Part shown: positions 6,802-34,569 of the stretch, in pieces
Position numbering within the stretch: the first letter of the stretch is position 1
How the letters are laid out: every line of letters starts with the position of its first letter
Assembly: GCF_000504305.1 (NCBI RefSeq)
Contig: NZ_KI632512.1
Location: 1,734,250 to 1,798,249 of the forward strand
Origin: Nitratidesulfovibrio termitidis HI1
GTDB lineage: Bacteria > Desulfobacterota > Desulfovibrionia > Desulfovibrionales > Desulfovibrionaceae
DNA length: 64,000 nt
Reading direction: 5' to 3'
Made by a program: the position numbers and the translations under genes
Notes under the pieces: model-generated
The model's input: only the letters and a program-made list of their open reading frames with translations
Database searches by the model: none
What the model was told of the DNA's origin: nothing

Positions 6802-7644
6802 TCAGGCGTCCGGCGTCTGCGGCGCGCCGTTGCCCGTATCGAACGCCTCTGCCGCCGGGCAGGCCACGCGCAACGCGCGGATGGACCGCGCCCTGCCTGT
6901 GGCCTCGTCCACGTCCAGCAGCACGCCGTTCAGCGAGCCGCGCCCCGTGGCCGGGCGAAAACGCTGCGGCAGCCGGGTCAGAAAGCGGTCCACGATGACC
7001 TTGTGGTCCATGCCCAGCACGGACGCCTCCACCCCGCACATGCCTGCGTCGGTAAGGTAGGCGGTGGAGCCGGGCAGCAGCATGGCGTCGGCGGTCTGCA
7101 CGTGGGTGTGGGTGCCGATAACCGCACTGACCCGGCCATCCAGAAACCAGCCCAGGGCCTTCTTTTCGCTGGTGGCCTCGGCATGAAAATCCACAAGGCG
7201 GACAACGGGAGCGCCCTCTTCCGCCTCCAGCCGGGCCAGCAGGGCCTCTGCCGTGCGGAAGGGGCAGTCCAGCGGGTCCATGTAGGTGGTGCCGCACAGG
7301 TTCAGTACCGCCAGGCGATGCCCGCCGGGCAGGTCGTACACGCCAAGGCCCCGCCCCGGCGCACCCGCCGGGTAATTGGCGGGGCGCAGCAGGCGCGGCT
7401 CCTTGTCCAGCGCGCCGTACAGGTCGCGGTGTTTCCATACGTGATTGCCGGTGGTCAGGATGTCGATGCCCATGCCCAGCAGTTCGCGCAGGGTTTCCGC
7501 CGTCAGGCCGATGCCGCCGGAGGCGTTTTCGCCATTGGCGATGACCACGTCGGCAGCGTGCTCGCGCCGCAGGGCGGGCAGCAGTTCCTTCAGGGCCTGC
7601 CTGCCCGGCTTGCCCACGATGTCGCCGAAAAAGAGGATGCGCAT
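6802..7644 (-). CDS. YmdB/TIGR00282-family metallophosphoesterase
   Basis: 280 residues. It starts MRILFFGDIVGKPGR, the hallmark opening of the YmdB family, with metal-ligand motifs GDIVG, ANGENASGG, TGNHVWKH, DFHAEATSEK and GTHTHVQTAD in order. Characterised homologues hydrolyse 2',3'-cyclic nucleotides and affect RNA turnover and cell-state decisions; the in vivo substrate here is unknown. I chose the ATG at 7644 because the family always begins at this motif; the upstream extension (MGTRVHHTERPT) has no support. It sits between moeA and tyrS on the same strand. Its upstream region is filled by a palindromic repeat element (7697-7843). Confidence 0.92.
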   Translation of the reverse strand: MRILFFGDIVGKPGRQALKELLPALRREHAADVVIANGENASGGIGLTAETLRELLGMGIDILTTGNHVWKHRDLYGALDKEPRLLRPANYPAGAPGRGLGVYDLPGGHRLAVLNLCGTTYMDPLDCPFRTAEALLARLEAEEGAPVVRLVDFHAEATSEKKALGWFLDGRVSAVIGTHTHVQTADAMLLPGSTAYLTDAGMCGVEASVLGMDHKVIVDRFLTRLPQRFRPATGRGSLNGVLLDVDEATGRARSIRALRVACPAAEAFDTGNGAPQTPDA

Positions 7645-7696
7645 GGTTGGTCGTTCCGTGTGATGTACGCGTGTACCCAAAAGGCCACGTTGAGGC

Positions 7697-7843
7697 AGGG
7701 GCTGCTTCCAAATTAGGATTTTCGTTCGTTGGCGAGGAAAACGAGCCTGCCATGAGGGAGTATACTCTTATCGTATTCGACCGACATGGCAGGCGAAGCT
7801 TGACGACGCCAACGGGCGAAAGGACAATTTGGGAGCAGCCCCT
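7697..7843. repeat. MITE-like palindromic repeat, copy A
   Basis: A 147-bp element with 18-bp terminal inverted repeats (AGGGGCTGCTTCCAAATT at 7697-7714 and its 17/18 complement at 7826-7843). The interior is also largely self-complementary (TTCGTTCGTTGGCGAGG... against ...GACGCCAACGGGCGAA; GCCTGCCATG against CATGGCAGGC), so either strand could fold into one long hairpin. The centre has the palindrome GAGTATACTC. The right end overlaps the moeA stop codon TAG. Copy C (33245-33382) is nearly identical across the core. No target-site duplication and no transposase gene are visible. Confidence 0.8.
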
Positions 7844-9107
7844 AAATCAGATACGCGTCGTGCTCGGAGCCCGCCACAAGCCCTTCCGCCCGCTCGGGTA
7901 TGCGCACCAGCGCGTGCGCCCCGGTCAGCGTGTGCAGCAGGCCGGACTTGCCCAGCAGCGGCACGGCGGACGGCAGCCCGCCATCTTCCTGCCGGGTCGG
8001 GTCGATGCGCACCCGCACCCAGTCCTCGCGCCCCTGCCGCGACGCCACGTTGCGCGCCAGACGCACCCGGCGCGCAGGCCACAGCGACCGGTCGAAGGCA
8101 TCGGTCCGGCCGGAGAGATGATGCAGGAAGGGTATCCCCAGCACGAACATGACCACCTGGGCAGAGGTCACCTGCCCAGGCAGGCCCCACACCGCGCGGC
8201 AGCCGCCGCCGTCCCCCTCGGGCACACGGGCAAGGATGGTCGGCTTGCCGGGGCTGATGGCCACGCCGTGGGCCAGCAGTTCCGCCCCTTCGATGCGCGA
8301 CAGCGCGGCCACGGTCAGGTCGCGCACGCCCACTGAACTGCCGCCGGACAGCAACACCACGTCGGCGTCACGCAGCCCCTCGCGCAGAGCCGCCTCCAGC
8401 GCGCCCAGTTCGTCGGGCACGATGCCGAGGCAGCGCGCCTCGCATCCGGTCCGGCGCACCAGCGCGGCCAGGGTGTGGCTGTTCACGTCACGCACCTGGC
8501 CGGGCCGGGGCGTGGCCTCCGGGGCCACCAGTTCATCGCCGGTGGAAATGATGACCACGCGCGGCGCACAGTGCACGCGCACGGACGTGGCGCCCACGGC
8601 GGCCAGCATGCCCACTTCCTGCGGGCGCAGCCGGGTGCCCGCCGTCAGCGCGGGTGTGCCCGCCATGGCGTCCTCGCCGCGCAGCATCACGTTTTCCCCG
8701 GGGGCAACGGCGCGGCGCATCTCTATGGTGCCTGCCCCCAGTTCATGGGTGTGCTCCACCATGACCACCGCGTCGGCGCCTTCAGGCATGACGCCGCCAG
8801 TGACGATGGCGGCGCAACGGCCCGGCGTCACGGCAAAGGTGGCGGGGTGTTCGATGTCCACCCTGCCGTCGCATTCGAGGTAGGCAGGGTTCGTTTCCGT
8901 GGCGCCGAACAGGTCGGCGGCGCGCACTGCGTAGCCATCCATGCCCGCGCGGTCGGTAAGGGGCAGGTCTTCCCCGGCAATGACGTCCGCCGCAAGCACG
9001 CGGCCATCGGCCCGGTGCAGGTCCACCGTTTCCGCCGCCAGGGGCGAAAAGGCGCGCAAGAGTTCGGTGAACGCCTCCACCGAGAGGACGTTGAAAAATC
9101 CGGTCAT
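7842..9107 (-). CDS. moeA: Molybdopterin molybdenumtransferase MoeA
   Basis: 421 residues. It inserts molybdate (or tungstate) into adenylylated molybdopterin, the last step of molybdenum cofactor synthesis, which this kind of organism needs for formate dehydrogenases (family knowledge). Visible motifs: DRAGMDGYAVRAAD near the amino terminus, GEDAMAGT, the MoCF-type segment STGDELV, LLSGGSSVGVRD, ISPGKPT and WGLPGQVTSA. Classical MoeA has GLPGNP where this has GLPGQV. The domain order (I-IV) fits MoeA. I prefer the ATG at 9107; GTG at 9113 is possible, with AAAAGGA 8 nt upstream of it. The TAG stop overlaps the end of repeat copy A. Confidence 0.93.
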   Translation of the reverse strand: MTGFFNVLSVEAFTELLRAFSPLAAETVDLHRADGRVLAADVIAGEDLPLTDRAGMDGYAVRAADLFGATETNPAYLECDGRVDIEHPATFAVTPGRCAAIVTGGVMPEGADAVVMVEHTHELGAGTIEMRRAVAPGENVMLRGEDAMAGTPALTAGTRLRPQEVGMLAAVGATSVRVHCAPRVVIISTGDELVAPEATPRPGQVRDVNSHTLAALVRRTGCEARCLGIVPDELGALEAALREGLRDADVVLLSGGSSVGVRDLTVAALSRIEGAELLAHGVAISPGKPTILARVPEGDGGGCRAVWGLPGQVTSAQVVMFVLGIPFLHHLSGRTDAFDRSLWPARRVRLARNVASRQGREDWVRVRIDPTRQEDGGLPSAVPLLGKSGLLHTLTGAHALVRIPERAEGLVAGSEHDAYLI

Positions 9108-9430
9108 GGTCACGGTCGGTTCCTTTTCCTTCTCGCGCACAGGGGGCACCGCCCCGCGCGGGATGGCCGCACGGCGCTACTGCACGTCTGTGGTGGCACG
9201 GGGTGGACGCGAACACCTCTCCTACCCCGCGCGGGCGCTACGGGCAAGGGAGCCGGATGACGCCAACGGCAGCCGGGAATGGCCCGAGAGCAGAACACGA
9301 CACCGGAAAGGCTGGCCGGACAGGACAAGATTCCGGGGGGGACCGAACGGTATCGAAACAAGGTCGGAGCGATGTGCGCAGCCCTGCGGCCCGTTGCCTC
9401 GAAAGCATGTCCGAAATGTGATCGCCGGTG

Positions 9431-9459
9431 TTGACACGTTTTCATCAAACAGCTAGACA
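9431..9459 (+). promoter_or_regulatory. Sigma70-type promoter candidate
   Basis: TTGACA at 9431-9436, a 17-bp spacer, then TAGACA at 9454-9459, inside an AT-rich island. The same -10 hexamer and spacing occur at the atp operon promoter (42378-42406). It points toward the DMT exporter, about 340 bp downstream. Confidence 0.5.
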
Positions 9460-9466
9460 TGACGCA

Positions 9467-9485
9467 TACGATTTATAAAATCGTA
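9467..9485. promoter_or_regulatory. Operator-like palindrome
   Basis: TACGATTTATAAAATCGTA is a perfect 8-bp inverted repeat around ATA. It lies immediately downstream of the promoter above, at the expected transcription start, so a bound protein would block initiation. It is also upstream of the divergent moeA gene. The cognate regulator is not identifiable from the sequence. Confidence 0.5.
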
Positions 9486-9807
9486 ACACTGAAGCCGTCG
9501 ATGTGCTTCGCAAGCAAGCTACGCATCCCTCCCGCCTGCGCCCCCGTCGTTCCCGCCGACGGGGGCGCGCTGCGTACACCCCCGTACTTTAGGCTGTCGC
9601 GGCCATGCCGCCACCCCGCGTCGACTGAACACGGTTGGCGAGTGTCGCGCGCCTTCGTCTGCACGTCCTCATCTGGCATGCCCCCGCTCCACCCCACCCG
9701 GTGTGCCGTCTGGCCCGACCTGTTGCGGTTCGGCCCGGCCTGACCTGGCTTGACACCCCCATGCCCCCGGCGTAGGCAGGATGCTCCTCAATTTCCGGAG
9801 CACATCC

Positions 9808-10707
9808 ATGCACGCATCTTCACGCACGGGCGTGGGCACGCGCGGCGTCCTGCTGGCGCTGGCGGCCACCGTCATCTGGTCCGGCAACTTCATCGTGGCG
9901 CGCGCGCTGGCCGACAGCATGCCGCCGGTATCCGTCTCGTTCGCGCGGTGGCTGGTGGCCACCTGCGTCCTGCTGCCCTTCGGCCTTGGCCCGCTGCGCC
10001 GCGAATGGCCCGTGGTGCGCGCCCACCTGGCCTACTTCTGCGTGACCGGCTTCGTCGGGGTTTCGGTGTTCAACACCCTCATCTACGTGGCCGGACGCAC
10101 CACCGCAGCGCTGAACATGGCGCTTATCGCCACGTCCTCGCCCATCTTCATCATCCTGTTCTCGCGGGTATTCCTGGGCGAGGCGGTGACCCTGCGCCGC
10201 CTGGCGGGCCTGGCCACGGCGGTGACAGGCATCGTGGTGCTGGTGACGCGGGGCGACCTTGCGCGACTGTCCACCCTTACCTTCACCAGCGGCGACCTGT
10301 GGATGGTGGCCGCCTCCATGCTGTTCGCGGGGTATTCGGTGCTGGTGCGCAAGCGCCCCACGGGCGTGGGGCAGACCACCTTCCTGATGGCCACCTTCAT
10401 TCCAGGCCTGCTGGGCATCCTGCCCATGCTGGCGTGGGAACTTTCCACCGGGTCCATGCCGGTGTTCACACCGCAGGCCGTGATCGGGGTGCTGTACATC
10501 GGGCTGGGGGCATCGCTCATCGCCTACCGCTGCTGGAACCTGGCCATCGCGGCCATCGGCCCCAGCCGTTCGGCGCTGATCTACTATTCCCTGCCCGCGT
10601 TCAGCGGGCTGGAGGCGCTGCTGCTGCTGGGCGAACCGGTGACGCCCGCCCACTTCACCAGCGGCGCGCTGATCCTGGGCGGCATTCTGGTGGCCACGCG
10701 GGAGTGA
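9808..10707 (+). CDS. EamA/DMT-superfamily transporter (RhaT/YdcZ-like exporter)
   Basis: 299 residues, almost entirely hydrophobic, with about ten predicted membrane segments in two EamA repeats. The first repeat opens ALAATVIWSGNFIVARAL and contains the conserved region FCVTGFVGVSVFNTLIYVAG. The second carries ASMLFAGYSVLVRKRP and IGLGASLIAYRCWNLAI. The family exports small metabolites or amino acids through the inner membrane; the substrate cannot be told from sequence. The ATG at 9808 has GGAG eight bases upstream and is preferred over the ATG at 9781. It is followed by repeat copy B instead of a simple terminator. Confidence 0.9.
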   Translation: MHASSRTGVGTRGVLLALAATVIWSGNFIVARALADSMPPVSVSFARWLVATCVLLPFGLGPLRREWPVVRAHLAYFCVTGFVGVSVFNTLIYVAGRTTAALNMALIATSSPIFIILFSRVFLGEAVTLRRLAGLATAVTGIVVLVTRGDLARLSTLTFTSGDLWMVAASMLFAGYSVLVRKRPTGVGQTTFLMATFIPGLLGILPMLAWELSTGSMPVFTPQAVIGVLYIGLGASLIAYRCWNLAIAAIGPSRSALIYYSLPAFSGLEALLLLGEPVTPAHFTSGALILGGILVATRE

Positions 10708-10723
10708 GGTTCACGCCCCGCCA

Positions 10724-11068
10724 AGGGCTGTTTCTGAATGAGGATTTTCGTTCGTTGGCAAGGGAAACGAGCCGGCCATGAAGGAGTGCCCTAGCCGTTA
10801 GGTGAGCTTGCGAACCTTACGGATAAGGACAGCAGAGCGCGGCAGCCGTTATGCGAGTCTTCGAGCATTACGGATGGCGACCGCAGAGCTATGGCAGGCG
10901 AAGTTTGACCGCGTTGCGCACGATGCCCGTATCGCTGCTGTCCCCATCCGTACGGCTCGCAGACTCGCCTACGGCTGGGGCAAGGCTCGCAAGCTCGCCT
11001 AACGGGCACGCTCCGCGCCCTTCGGGTCGGTCAGCCAACGGGCGAAAAGACCATTCAGATGCAGCCCT
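10724..11068. repeat. MITE-like palindromic repeat, copy B (expanded, composite)
   Basis: Terminal inverted repeats (AGGGCTGTTTCTGAATG at 10724-10740 and its near complement at 11052-11068) and outer arms match copies A and C. The centre is replaced by about 200 bp of a second nested inverted repeat: a unit resembling GTTAGGTGAGCTTGCGAAC occurs near 10798 and again degenerately near 10849. The complementary units are near 10960-11001. The element fills the whole gap between the convergent DMT exporter and sigma54 activator genes. Its right end abuts the TAG stop of the latter. Confidence 0.7.
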
Positions 11069-12671
11069 AGCCCCGGAACTCGCCCACATCCATCCCCAGT
11101 CGCGCCACCATCTTCTGGATGGCCACCCGCGACAGGCCGGACAGCCGCGCCGCCTCGGACACGTTGCCCCCGGTCTGGGCCAGCAGGTCGCGCAGGTAGC
11201 CCTGGGTGAACTGGTCGGTAACGCGGGCCTTGGCCGCCTTGTACGGCACGACGCCGCCCCCGCCCGCAGCAACTGCCCCGCCTGTCCCGACTGCCCCGAC
11301 TGCCCCGACTGCCCCGACGGGGGAGACAGGCGCAATGCCCCCGGATGCTTCCGTGTGCCCCTGTCCTCCAACCTGACCACCCGTCGGCCCGGTGACCACA
11401 CCTCCAGTTCCGACACTGGCGGGATTCGTGGAACCGGCTATTCCCCCCTGTCGGGTCCGCAGCCAGTCGCCCGTGCGGCCAAGCCCGCCCGCCGCCACAT
11501 GGCGCACCGTATCCATGCCCAGCACCTCCCCGCCACTGAACAGGGTCAGCCTGCGCACCACGTTTTGCAGTTCGCGCACGTTGCCCGGCCAGTCGCGCCC
11601 GGCCAGATGGTCGAGCACGTCCGGCGCCACGGTCTTCTGCGGCAGGCCCAGCTCGTCGCAGGCATTGCGCAGGAAGGTGACCGCCAGCAGGGGGATGTCC
11701 TCCACCCGTTCGCGCAGGGGGGGCACCCGGATGGTGACCACGTTGAGCCGGTAGAACAGATCCTCGCGGAATTCGCGCGAGGCCATGCGGGCCTCCAGGT
11801 CCTGGTTGGTGGAAGCCACCACCCGCACGTCCACGTTTTCGGTGCGGCCGGAACCCACGGGGCGGATTTCGCCCTCTTGCAGAAAGCGCAGCAGTTTGGT
11901 CTGGATGGGCTGCGAGATGTCGCCTATTTCGTCCAGATGCACGGTGCCGCCATCCGCCATGGCGAACAGCCCCTTGCGGTCACGCTCCGCCCCGGTGAAG
12001 GCCCCGCGCACATGGCCGAACAGCTCGCTTTCCAGCAGATGTTCCGGAATGGCCGGGCAGTTCACGGCCAGAAAAGGCATGGAGGCGCGCTGGCTCTGCC
12101 TGTGGATGGTGCGGGCCACCATTTCCTTGCCCGTGCCCGATTCGCCCCGCACCAACACCGTGTAGTCCGACTGGGCCACGGTGGCGATGGTGCGGCGCAG
12201 GGCCTGCATGGCCTGCCCCTGCCCCACCAGGTCGTCGCGGCCGGTGCCCAGCGAAACCACGTCGCGCAGGCGGCGGTTCTCCGCCAGCAGGCGGCTGCGT
12301 TCCAGCCCCTTGCCCAGCACGCGGGCCAGTTGGTCCGGCTCCACGGGCTTGGCCACGAAATCGTAGGCCCCGGCGCGTAACGCCTCCACCGCCGTTTCGA
12401 TGGAGCCGTGCGCGGTCAGCACCACCACGCTCAGGTCCGGGTCCTGTTCCAGCGCCATGGGCACCAGTTGCAGACCGGTCATGCCAGGCATGCGCAGGTC
12501 GGTGAGCAGCACGTCCACCCGCTGCGCCCGCAGGCAGTCCAGCGCCTCTGCACCGGAGAAAGCCTGGGCCACCTCCACCTCGGGAAACAATTCCGCGGCC
12601 AGACGCGAAAGCCCCCGGGCGAAATCCGGTTCGTCGTCCACGATGAGCACGTGCGGTCGGTGGGGCATCAT
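11067..12671 (-). CDS. NtrC-family sigma54-dependent response regulator
   Basis: 534 residues. The receiver domain spans 7-120, with the phosphoacceptor Asp in LLTDLRMPG (about 58) and acidic pocket VDDEPD. The AAA+ domain has Walker A GESGTGKE (about 176-183), the sigma54-contact loop GAFTGA (about 223-228), a Walker B-like GGTVHLDEIGD, and the arginine-finger region FREDLFYRLNV. A Fis-type HTH is at the carboxy end (GGNVSEAARLSGLSRVAIQKMV). A ~75-residue Gly/Val linker between AAA+ and HTH contains an iterated VGA tripeptide encoded by a 9-bp DNA repeat. The start ATGA overlaps the kinase stop, so the pair is translationally coupled. It likely activates the sigma54-like promoter ahead of the exporter gene at 17705 (inference). 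Confidence 0.95.
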   Translation of the reverse strand: MMPHRPHVLIVDDEPDFARGLSRLAAELFPEVEVAQAFSGAEALDCLRAQRVDVLLTDLRMPGMTGLQLVPMALEQDPDLSVVVLTAHGSIETAVEALRAGAYDFVAKPVEPDQLARVLGKGLERSRLLAENRRLRDVVSLGTGRDDLVGQGQAMQALRRTIATVAQSDYTVLVRGESGTGKEMVARTIHRQSQRASMPFLAVNCPAIPEHLLESELFGHVRGAFTGAERDRKGLFAMADGGTVHLDEIGDISQPIQTKLLRFLQEGEIRPVGSGRTENVDVRVVASTNQDLEARMASREFREDLFYRLNVVTIRVPPLRERVEDIPLLAVTFLRNACDELGLPQKTVAPDVLDHLAGRDWPGNVRELQNVVRRLTLFSGGEVLGMDTVRHVAAGGLGRTGDWLRTRQGGIAGSTNPASVGTGGVVTGPTGGQVGGQGHTEASGGIAPVSPVGAVGAVGAVGTGGAVAAGGGGVVPYKAAKARVTDQFTQGYLRDLLAQTGGNVSEAARLSGLSRVAIQKMVARLGMDVGEFRG

Positions 12672-33244: not shown

Positions 33245-33382
33245 GGGCTGTGCCCAAATTAGGATTTTTGTTCGTTGGCGAGGAAAACGAGCCGGCCATG
33301 AGGGAGTATACTCTTATCGTATTCGACCGACATGGCAGGCAAAGTTTGACGAAGCCAACGGGCAAAAGGACAATTTGGGCCC
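33245..33382. repeat. MITE-like palindromic repeat, copy C
   Basis: Nearly identical to copy A across its core (about seven substitutions in roughly 125 bp), including the GAGTATACTC centre. The left end is GGGCTGTGCCCAAATT (33245-33260). The right end is shortened (AATTTGGGCCC) and abuts the TAG stop of proB. Confidence 0.8.
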
Positions 33383-34569
33383 TACACCACGGCGTCCAGC
33401 AGCAAGTTATCGCGATGGATAACTTCCGGATAATGCGCGTCGCCCAGGATGGCCGCCACCTCGTGGCGCTTGTGCCCCATGATGCGCCGCAGTTCCGCCG
33501 CAGCATAGTTGGAAAGCCCCACCCCGATGACGGTGCCGTCCTGCGCGGCCACGCGCACCAGCGCGCCGGAGCCGAAGCCCCCTTCCACGCCGCACACCCC
33601 GCCGGGCAACAGACTTTTGCCGCCCTGCAGCAGGGCGCGGGCAGCGCCCTCGTCCACGGTGACGGTGCCGGCCGGGTCCGACTGGTAGGCCAGCCAGTAC
33701 TTGCGGCGCGAAACGGTGCGGGCGTCCGCGCGCACCCAGGTGCCGATGGCTTCGCCCGCGAAGGCGCGGGCCAGCACGTCGGGTTCGCGCCCCGGCACGA
33801 TGAGCGTGGGCACGCCGATCTGCGCGGCGCGCCGCGCGGACAACAGCTTGGAGTACATGCCCCCGGTGCCCACGGACGTCTTGCCGCCGCACAGTCCGTC
33901 CAGGTCCAGCCCGTGCACGTCGTCGATGCAGTCCATGACGCAGGCGTCCGGGTTGTCCTGGGGGTTTTCGGCAAACACGCCGCCCGCCGAGGTCAGGTTC
34001 ACGAACAGGTCGGCTTCCACGATGTTCAGCAACAGGCTGGCCAGGCAGTCGTTGTCGCCGAACTTCAGGTCGTGCACGGCCACGGTGTCGTTCTCGTTGA
34101 CCACGGGGATGGCCCCCCAGTCGAGCAGCGCGGCAAAGGTGTTGCGGGCGTTCAGAAAGCGGTTGCGGCTCTTCAGGTCGTCGCGGGTCAGCAGCACCTG
34201 CGCCGATATGCGCCCGCGCCGGGCAAAGGCTTCATCATAATGATGCATCAGGCGGCTCTGCCCGATGGCCGATGCCGCCTGACGGTGGGGCATGCCCGCG
34301 ATCTCGCAGCAGCTGCGCAGCACGCCGCGCCCAGCCGCCACCGCGCCGGAAGACACCAGCACCACGCGCCGTCCGCCTTCCTGCACGGCGGAAAGCTGGT
34401 CCGCCAGCGATTCCACCATGGCCAGGTCCAGCCCTTCGCCGGTGGTCAGCACCGCGCTGCCCACCTTGACCACGACGCAACGCGCCTCCGCCAGCGCCCT
34501 GCGCCGTTCGGATTGCCAGTCGCCCGCCGTATCCGCCTGATCCCGCCTTGTCTCGTTCCGTCCGGACAT
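33382..34569 (-). CDS. proB: Glutamate 5-kinase with PUA domain
   Basis: 395 residues. First step of proline synthesis: ATP-dependent phosphorylation of glutamate. The amino-acid-kinase domain shows VVVKVGSAVLTTGEGLD, VLVSSGAVAAGRGVL, PVVNENDTVAV, FGDNDCLASLL and VGTGGMYSKLLSARRA in order. A PUA domain occupies about 295-380 (AGTVTVDEGAARALLQGGKS). GGAG precedes the ATG at 34569. It follows obgE by 47 bp and is probably cotranscribed with rplU-rpmA-obgE. The stop TAG touches repeat copy C. Confidence 0.96.
   Translation of the reverse strand: MSGRNETRRDQADTAGDWQSERRRALAEARCVVVKVGSAVLTTGEGLDLAMVESLADQLSAVQEGGRRVVLVSSGAVAAGRGVLRSCCEIAGMPHRQAASAIGQSRLMHHYDEAFARRGRISAQVLLTRDDLKSRNRFLNARNTFAALLDWGAIPVVNENDTVAVHDLKFGDNDCLASLLLNIVEADLFVNLTSAGGVFAENPQDNPDACVMDCIDDVHGLDLDGLCGGKTSVGTGGMYSKLLSARRAAQIGVPTLIVPGREPDVLARAFAGEAIGTWVRADARTVSRRKYWLAYQSDPAGTVTVDEGAARALLQGGKSLLPGGVCGVEGGFGSGALVRVAAQDGTVIGVGLSNYAAAELRRIMGHKRHEVAAILGDAHYPEVIHRDNLLLDAVV

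Follow-up and report, generated by a model that had tools for sequence, protein, structure and literature searches.

Three copies (A, B and C) of a palindromic repeat lie in a 64,000-nucleotide stretch of the Nitratidesulfovibrio termitidis HI1 genome (the window; positions 1734250-1798249 of a single-contig genome of 4,257,954 bp), and each has one end at the TAG stop codon of a minus-strand gene, namely, moeA, a sigma-54 activator gene, and proB. Why should a dispersed repeat abut stop codons? An initial annotation of the window had offered two answers, an element that targets stop codons or hairpins downstream of genes and a signal for 3' processing or termination. Here, we examined the copies across the genome, at the orthologous sites of congeners, and in other genera, and the results suggest that the repeat is probably a non-autonomous mobile palindrome that inserts, with a single orientation, into the TA of in-frame stop codons already present.

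Placement of the element at stop codons

A DNA search of the own genome with copy A, in which 40 of 128 candidates were scored, returned at least 55 matching pieces; each of the 7 other genus genomes had at least 21 matches, and, outside the genus, 3 of 31 relatives (G010, G015, and G018) matched weakly. With a covariance model built from 46 copies, the own genome had at least 114 matches at E ≤ 1 (150 of 1,668 candidates scored), at least one element being matched twice (4202989 and 4203102), and the family in this genome amounts to about 100 copies. With these numbers, the occurrence of A, B, and C is not due to chance. Within the taxonomic family, the element has a patchy distribution, detected by the model in 19 of the 59 genomes and in 14 of the 44 genera (E ≤ 0.001). 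More than 30 matches were found in six of these genomes, including the own genome and one congener, with at most 52 matches scored per genome (G000, at least 52; G057, 50; G005, 47; G073, 16; G062, 15). No Rfam match was obtained in the window at gathering scores, and none of the five matches at E ≤ 1 in eight loci lay over an element.

For placement, 108 of the 114 own-genome matches were analyzed, the six weakest being excluded. Stem feet called by free folding or lenient extension were too noisy, because GC-rich flanks go on pairing, and an anchored pairing profile and stop-codon rules were used instead. The first automatic rule found a stop at the stem foot in 88 copies, no locatable core in 10, no stop in 6 (L002, L021, L025, L029, L035, and L141), and a weak stem in 4; among the 10 copies without a located core, 8 show a stop at the foot by eye, and L170 and one of the two L158 matches are ambiguous. 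The foot stop was in the best coding frame in 85 of the 88 copies (75 TAG, 6 TAA, and 4 TGA), against an expectation of one in three (P = 9 × 10−37).

An earlier orientation count, 80/85 versus 0/85, drew on copies preselected for a proximal stop; it was superseded by a stricter coding rule, for which all 98 copies whose ends could be located were used, with no preselection for a stop. Under this rule, an in-frame coding stop was present at the proximal foot in 83 of the 98 copies, the mirror case, a stop at the distal foot, was seen in none, and only 31 of 3,099 control windows qualified. Hence, the genome is not strewn with copies unrelated to stops, the outcome that had been named beforehand as contradicting any link to termination codons. 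The TAG itself, which had been taken as a clue, is uninformative, since 25 of the 37 genes called in the window end in TAG. Thus, the use of TAG is ordinary; the placement, frame, and orientation are not. The base preceding the stop (n = 80 copies) was C in 41, G in 26, T in 11, and A in 2.

Matches from other genera were also inspected. Of 19 listed loci, which did not include L189 to L196 and L206 of the same search, 2 belong to the genus (L179 and L197) and 4 were too short for the script. Among the 13 loci evaluated, a long open frame ending in a stop at the foot was clear in eight (TAG in L181, L199, L200, L184, L185, and L205; TAA in L202; TGA in L187), and five were ambiguous (L183, L186, L198, L201, and L204).

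Orthologous sites with and without the element

Thirteen own sites were compared with the same gene end in two to seven congeners each, yielding 76 rows. The stop was found at the same place in 75 of these, the remaining one (L248) being shifted and ambiguous. The search of related genomes for empty sites that had been proposed at the outset was successful: at five sites (216030, 2327301, 1148064, 1977584, and 2106869), at least two congeners have the stop at the same position and no element. On the distal side of the copies at these five sites, the sequence resumes with that following the stop in congeners, and at four of the five it starts with a copy of the stop, intact or decayed (TAG at 216030; TAT at 2327301, where most congeners have TAA; TTG at 1148064; AGG at 1977584). 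At several sites, the element is missing from the majority of congeners; for example, the empty site GCC-TAA-GGGGGAC corresponds to the filled site GCC-TAAGGAGTTG...CAACCCC-TATGGGGGAT, and CAT-TAG-GGCGG corresponds to CAC-TAGGGGCTG...CAGCCCC-TAGGGGCG. Overall, at 7 of the 13 sites, alignment by eye matched the distal flank to the sequence after the stop, with a copy of the stop that was either intact or decayed. In the main subfamily, the flank after the distal GCCCC (n = 38) carries T in 33 copies, then A or G in 30, and then A or G in 31, and it reads as a degenerate stop.

These alignments show that the stop is older than the element, since unoccupied orthologous sites already have the stop and the copy sits inside it. 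Together with the placement of 83 of the 98 copies, the pre-existing stops at element-free orthologues support one of the two initial proposals, that the element targets stop codons.

Some stops have received elements more than once. At three sites (443653, 1131132, and 2261555), the stop is occupied in a congener by an older, diverged element, and the own new copy precedes the older arm, with the spacers TTAG, TGG, and GAA, respectively. In congeners, the copy A locus has TGA with an older arm after it, and a remnant of this arm likely lies behind copy A: by eye, the sequence past the distal TGC of this copy resembles the 5' arm of the older element kept in congeners (TGATCCAACGCGGCC). The stop at this locus was probably reused. 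Of 12 further congener copies, 11 sit at stops also present in the comparison genomes, L064 being the exception; these comparison stops are not all element-free, other or partial elements being present there for L042, L061, and L067. A separate observation concerns sites 1000370 and 1131132 (L012 and L032; orthologues L227 to L232, L238 to L243, and L278), where every genus genome examined by eye has an element; these belong to two or three arm types, as if the same stops had been reused several times.

Structure of the hairpin

Across genera, the same core arms are found, CTTTTxGCCC-NCTGGC...CGTCA and TTCCTTGCCAGNGAACxAAAATCC. The outer arms differ between copies yet remain complementary (e.g., L150, L122, L128, and L143), and the GGGGCTG-type end is confined to one subfamily, other termini being unrelated in sequence but complementary. 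In 57 distinct core arm pairs, 585 of 627 pairs were of the Watson-Crick type, and single positions could have several types of pair (e.g., T-A 26/C-G 28, and G-C 34/T-A 14/C-G 5/A-T 2), although this census kept only well-pairing arm pairs and overstates the pairing.

The outer stems of the 78 copies with at least 55% pairing contained, on the sense strand, 1,113 Watson-Crick pairs, 25 G·U, 77 A·C, 98 other combinations, and 25 gaps; outside the main subfamily, the counts were 44 A·C and 16 G·U. Selection on the sense transcript would be expected to leave more G·U than A·C; as the outer stems show the reverse, by about three to one, a constraint at the DNA level or on the opposite strand would be favored over one on the sense transcript. 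This inference is weak, as the core shows no A·C excess (13 A·C and 9 G·U mismatches) and the copies are related. Hairpin-templated correction is a possible mutational cause of such an excess.

Along the stem, the Watson-Crick fraction (n = 78) was 0.14 to 0.33 at and upstream of the stop's T, 0.56 at its second base, 0.81 at the third, and 0.73 to 1.0 further in, a step that is overstated, since only pairing inside the stop is optimized by the profile. A stem that continued into the gene would give high pairing on the outer side, and the fraction seen there was low. Coding by readthrough was rejected, as the distance from the stop to the core keeps no frame. The larger copies (window 10790-11010; L017, L024, L036, L040, and L156) have extra hairpins at a few recurring internal places, with the inner motif CCGTTAGGCGAGCTTGCGAGCCTTACGG or one close to it; by eye, certain subfamilies look as though they had acquired a second small palindrome.

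Copies A, B, and C and their host genes

The three copies and their self-complementary bodies were found where the initial annotation had placed them (Table 1), and the contact of one end with the stops of the three minus-strand genes was confirmed by open reading frame (ORF) ends and Pfam. At each copy, the element end and the stop codon have bases in common. Folding gave z values of −11.0 (A), −8.3 (B), and −5.6 (C) relative to shuffled sequences, each copy scoring better than every shuffle. The near identity of A and C had been read as recent spread or selection on the structure; it is due to the recent expansion of one subfamily, and the outer arms of other copies are quite different. By proB, the nearest relatives with a name are Nitratidesulfovibrio oxamicus, N. 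liaohensis, and Desulfovibrio sp. A2. A ymdB-type phosphoesterase gene (6802-7680, minus strand) is codirectional with moeA and lies downstream of it and of copy A.

Table 1. Positions, in window coordinates, of the three copies, their contact points, and their host genes
Feature	Positions	Strand	Basis
Copy A, basic 147-bp-type palindrome	7698..7842	-	GGGGCTG...CAGCCCC on minus strand; covariance model 181.6 bits
TAG stop of moeA, foot of copy A; G is part of the stem	7842..7844	-	ORF end 7842
TGC at distal end of copy A, read as decayed former stop	7695..7697	-	Orthologous-locus alignment
moeA (MoeA_N, MoCF_biosynth, MoeA_C)	7842..9149	-	Pfam
Copy B, long version with additional internal hairpins (345 bp)	10725..11067	-	
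TAG stop of sigma-54-dependent response regulator, foot of copy B	11067..11069	-	ORF end 11067
Response regulator/sigma-54 activator	11067..12671	-	Pfam
Copy C, core same as A, outer stem shortened	33245..33382	-	
TAG stop of proB, foot of copy C	33382..33384	-	ORF end 33382
proB-type gene (AA_kinase + PUA; consistent with proB)	33382..34569	-	Pfam

Search for a mobilizing enzyme

No mobilizing enzyme was found among the IS630, IS5-type, Y1/RAYT (REP-associated tyrosine transposase; REP, repetitive extragenic palindromic), and reverse transcriptase families, other families not having been searched. The IS630-type DDE_3 domain (PF13358) was absent from all eight genus genomes, and reverse transcriptase was present in two of the eight. 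The GGGGCTG end had suggested an IS5/IS427 partner; this candidate was rejected, as PF13340 (IS5 type) occurs in only one of the eight genomes, and that locus (3,219 bp) has a single, unpaired GGGGCTGTTTC-like match. The own genome has no Y1 transposase, and PF01797 gave no match in G000 and G005. Among family genomes, a Y1 gene was present in 9 of 19 with the element versus 12 of 40 others, the 10 element-bearing genomes without Y1_Tnp including G000, G005, G057, G062, and G073.

A model of insertion and the points against it

In the model that we favor, the element would insert into the TA of an in-frame stop, always in the same orientation, and would leave stop letters at both ends, TA|GGGGCTG ... 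CAGCCCC|TA. The C terminus of the host protein would be unchanged because stop-codon letters remain at both ends, and the proximal stop would usually be TAG, as G is the first base of the main subfamily. The in-frame stop might be found if the ends of translated regions were preferred and TA or TAG were required, or, alternatively, through a step on mRNA. Since the fold is conserved and the ends are not, the putative enzyme would recognize the folded hairpin and not fixed end sequences, perhaps as single-stranded DNA. A more speculative version, to which we give only a small chance, couples insertion to translation termination, for instance via mRNA opened or cut at the stop in the ribosome, giving insertions that are in the sense orientation and invisible in the proteome; cleavage of the RelE type would be an example.

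Several observations weigh against this model. Under the stricter rule, 15 of the 98 copies fail, a group composed of true exceptions and of copies whose small or low-scoring host gene escapes the rule. L002, L018, L021, L025, L029, and L035 clearly lack a stop at the foot, and L018 was a false positive among the 85 in-frame copies, its left neighbor running the opposite way. L035 has TC, not TA, on both sides. The congener copy L064 (G006, about 1490-1650) lies within a reading frame, at the TA of its third codon. The duplication may be of 2 or 3 bp, with 3 the better fit at the TAA site 2327301; about 10 bp were lost distally at site 2106869; the distal flank could not be aligned safely at 5 of the 13 sites (90566, 241994, 1000370, 1081681, and 2118299); and the TGA stop of congeners at the locus of copy A is unexplained by a TA target. 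Concerning the exceptional copies themselves, L002, L018, L025, L029, and L035 are mostly located just upstream of divergently transcribed genes, and the L064 insertion converts codon 3 to TAG, so that the gene may restart downstream.

Alternative explanations

Differential survival might create the same picture if an ordinary miniature transposon with a TA or CTAG target inserted widely, harmful insertions were lost, and mainly those at stop codons survived. Such filtering could draw on the scarcity of CTAG, which is concentrated at stops (22 in the 64-kb window, 12 at stops and 5 in other noncoding DNA), on the C that precedes about half of the stops, on the TA insertion described for RUP-type miniature inverted-repeat transposable elements (MITEs) in passages of PMC2229807, and on L064 and L035, which are insertions outside stops. 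However, 39 of the 80 copies have no C before the stop, and a palindromic CTAG predicts random orientation, while 83 versus 0 was seen; thus, a CTAG preference accounts for part of the enrichment and for neither the single orientation nor the non-C stops. Moreover, a rough count in the window (genes called by a simple script, 76% covered) gave 94 noncoding TAG/CTA outside stops versus 26 TAG stops, and therefore, other harmless targets should abound. The lack of an IS630 DDE_3 gene in the eight genus genomes and the terminal sequences that are not conserved between subfamilies also argue against such a transposon. We consider filtering by survival unlikely; on these comparisons, targeting at insertion would be the simpler reading, and we infer that insertion is targeted. 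As read from the alignments, the gain at element-free sites, the exact site, the frame, the orientation, the reuse of stops, and the keeping of the hairpin by paired changes are established.

Selection for function is the other possibility raised at the outset: a functional RNA of the 3' untranslated region (UTR), such as a terminator, stabilizer, or processing site, could be held at the stop by selection, its spread being a side effect. The invariable sense orientation of copies at stops, the strong hairpin with covariation, the same placement in other genera, and the occupation of sites 1000370 and 1131132 in every genus genome examined there by eye would all suit a 3'-UTR RNA. Against it stand the scarcity of sense-strand G·U, the lack of an Rfam match over an element in the window or the eight loci, the many element-free orthologues, and the zero spacing from the stop, unexplained by function alone. 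Termination in particular received little support: a T5 run follows only 6 of the 98 copies, the next gene, where co-directional, starts within 60 nt in 33 of 74 cases, and an intrinsic terminator scan of 7400-11300 found none at A or B. These results indicated that a terminator role is unlikely, and we regard a functional RNA in general as rather improbable.

A third mechanism, movement of a GTAG-REP-type element by a Y1/RAYT transposase cutting next to TAG, would fit with REPs being hairpins near gene 3' ends and with the somewhat more frequent Y1 gene in element-bearing genomes. Yet Y1_Tnp is missing from 10 of the 19 such genomes, some of which have many copies (G000, G057, and G005), G precedes only 26 of 80 stops, TAA and TGA stops are also used, and stop-like letters are found on both sides. 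This mechanism is therefore very improbable.

Relation to known repeats and implications

EFAR and Ypal are palindromic repeats downstream of stops, and the present element resembles them in this respect; those lie near the stop codon, and the element described here lies inside it. Integron attC sites are likewise palindromes after stops, conserved in structure and not in sequence and used as folded bottom strands, and a difference is that the three hosts in the window are ordinary housekeeping or regulatory genes. Passages of PMC3733652 and PMC2817692 describe the GTAG-tagged REPs, SMAG, and REPINs with their RAYT transposases as high-copy hairpins near gene 3' ends. The present element shares with the GTAG REPs, so described, the high copy number, the variable but complementary stems, the location near 3' ends, and a TAG stop at the end. 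GTAG REP ends "often provide" TAG stops (PMC3733652, in part), and contact with a stop codon as such is therefore not new. The differences from GTAG REPs are several: the basic copy has 147 bp, as opposed to palindromes of 20 to 40 bp in those accounts; any base may precede TAG, and no GTAG/GTRG tetranucleotide marks the end; the stop is pre-existing, stop-like letters flank both ends, and there is one orientation after the stop; and the own genome has no Y1 gene. G·T stem pairs, often observed in REPs according to a passage of PMC3733652, are scarce here.

RUP and Correia/NEMIS are TA-flanked bacterial MITEs (PMC2229807, in part), and QMITE2 of Coxiella is placed mainly in 3' untranslated and intergenic regions in a passage of PMC5896051. 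A size of 100 to 200 bp, terminal inverted repeats, TA termini, and empty sites are common to these, as described there, and to our element. For a TA duplication as in RUP, the alignments by eye show stop-like copies flanking the element at 7 of the 13 sites, which fit 2 or 3 bp, and TC in L035. In contrast to these MITEs, the end sequences here vary with compensation, the stop placement has one orientation, and an IS630-type gene is lacking in the eight genus genomes. No description of stop-codon insertion as a target rule was found in the searches made of open-access papers. Taken together, the element is, in our reading, a mobile, stop-codon-inserting palindrome, a variant of the known hairpin-repeat kind.

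Small mobile repeats are commonly described near gene 3' ends; here, the occupied and unoccupied sites point to in-frame entry, in one orientation, into a pre-existing stop at dozens of genes, and the placement is alike in other genera. If the insertion is targeted, there would be some link between translation termination and DNA insertion, and an element of this kind may be of use for tagging genes at the 3' end without disruption.
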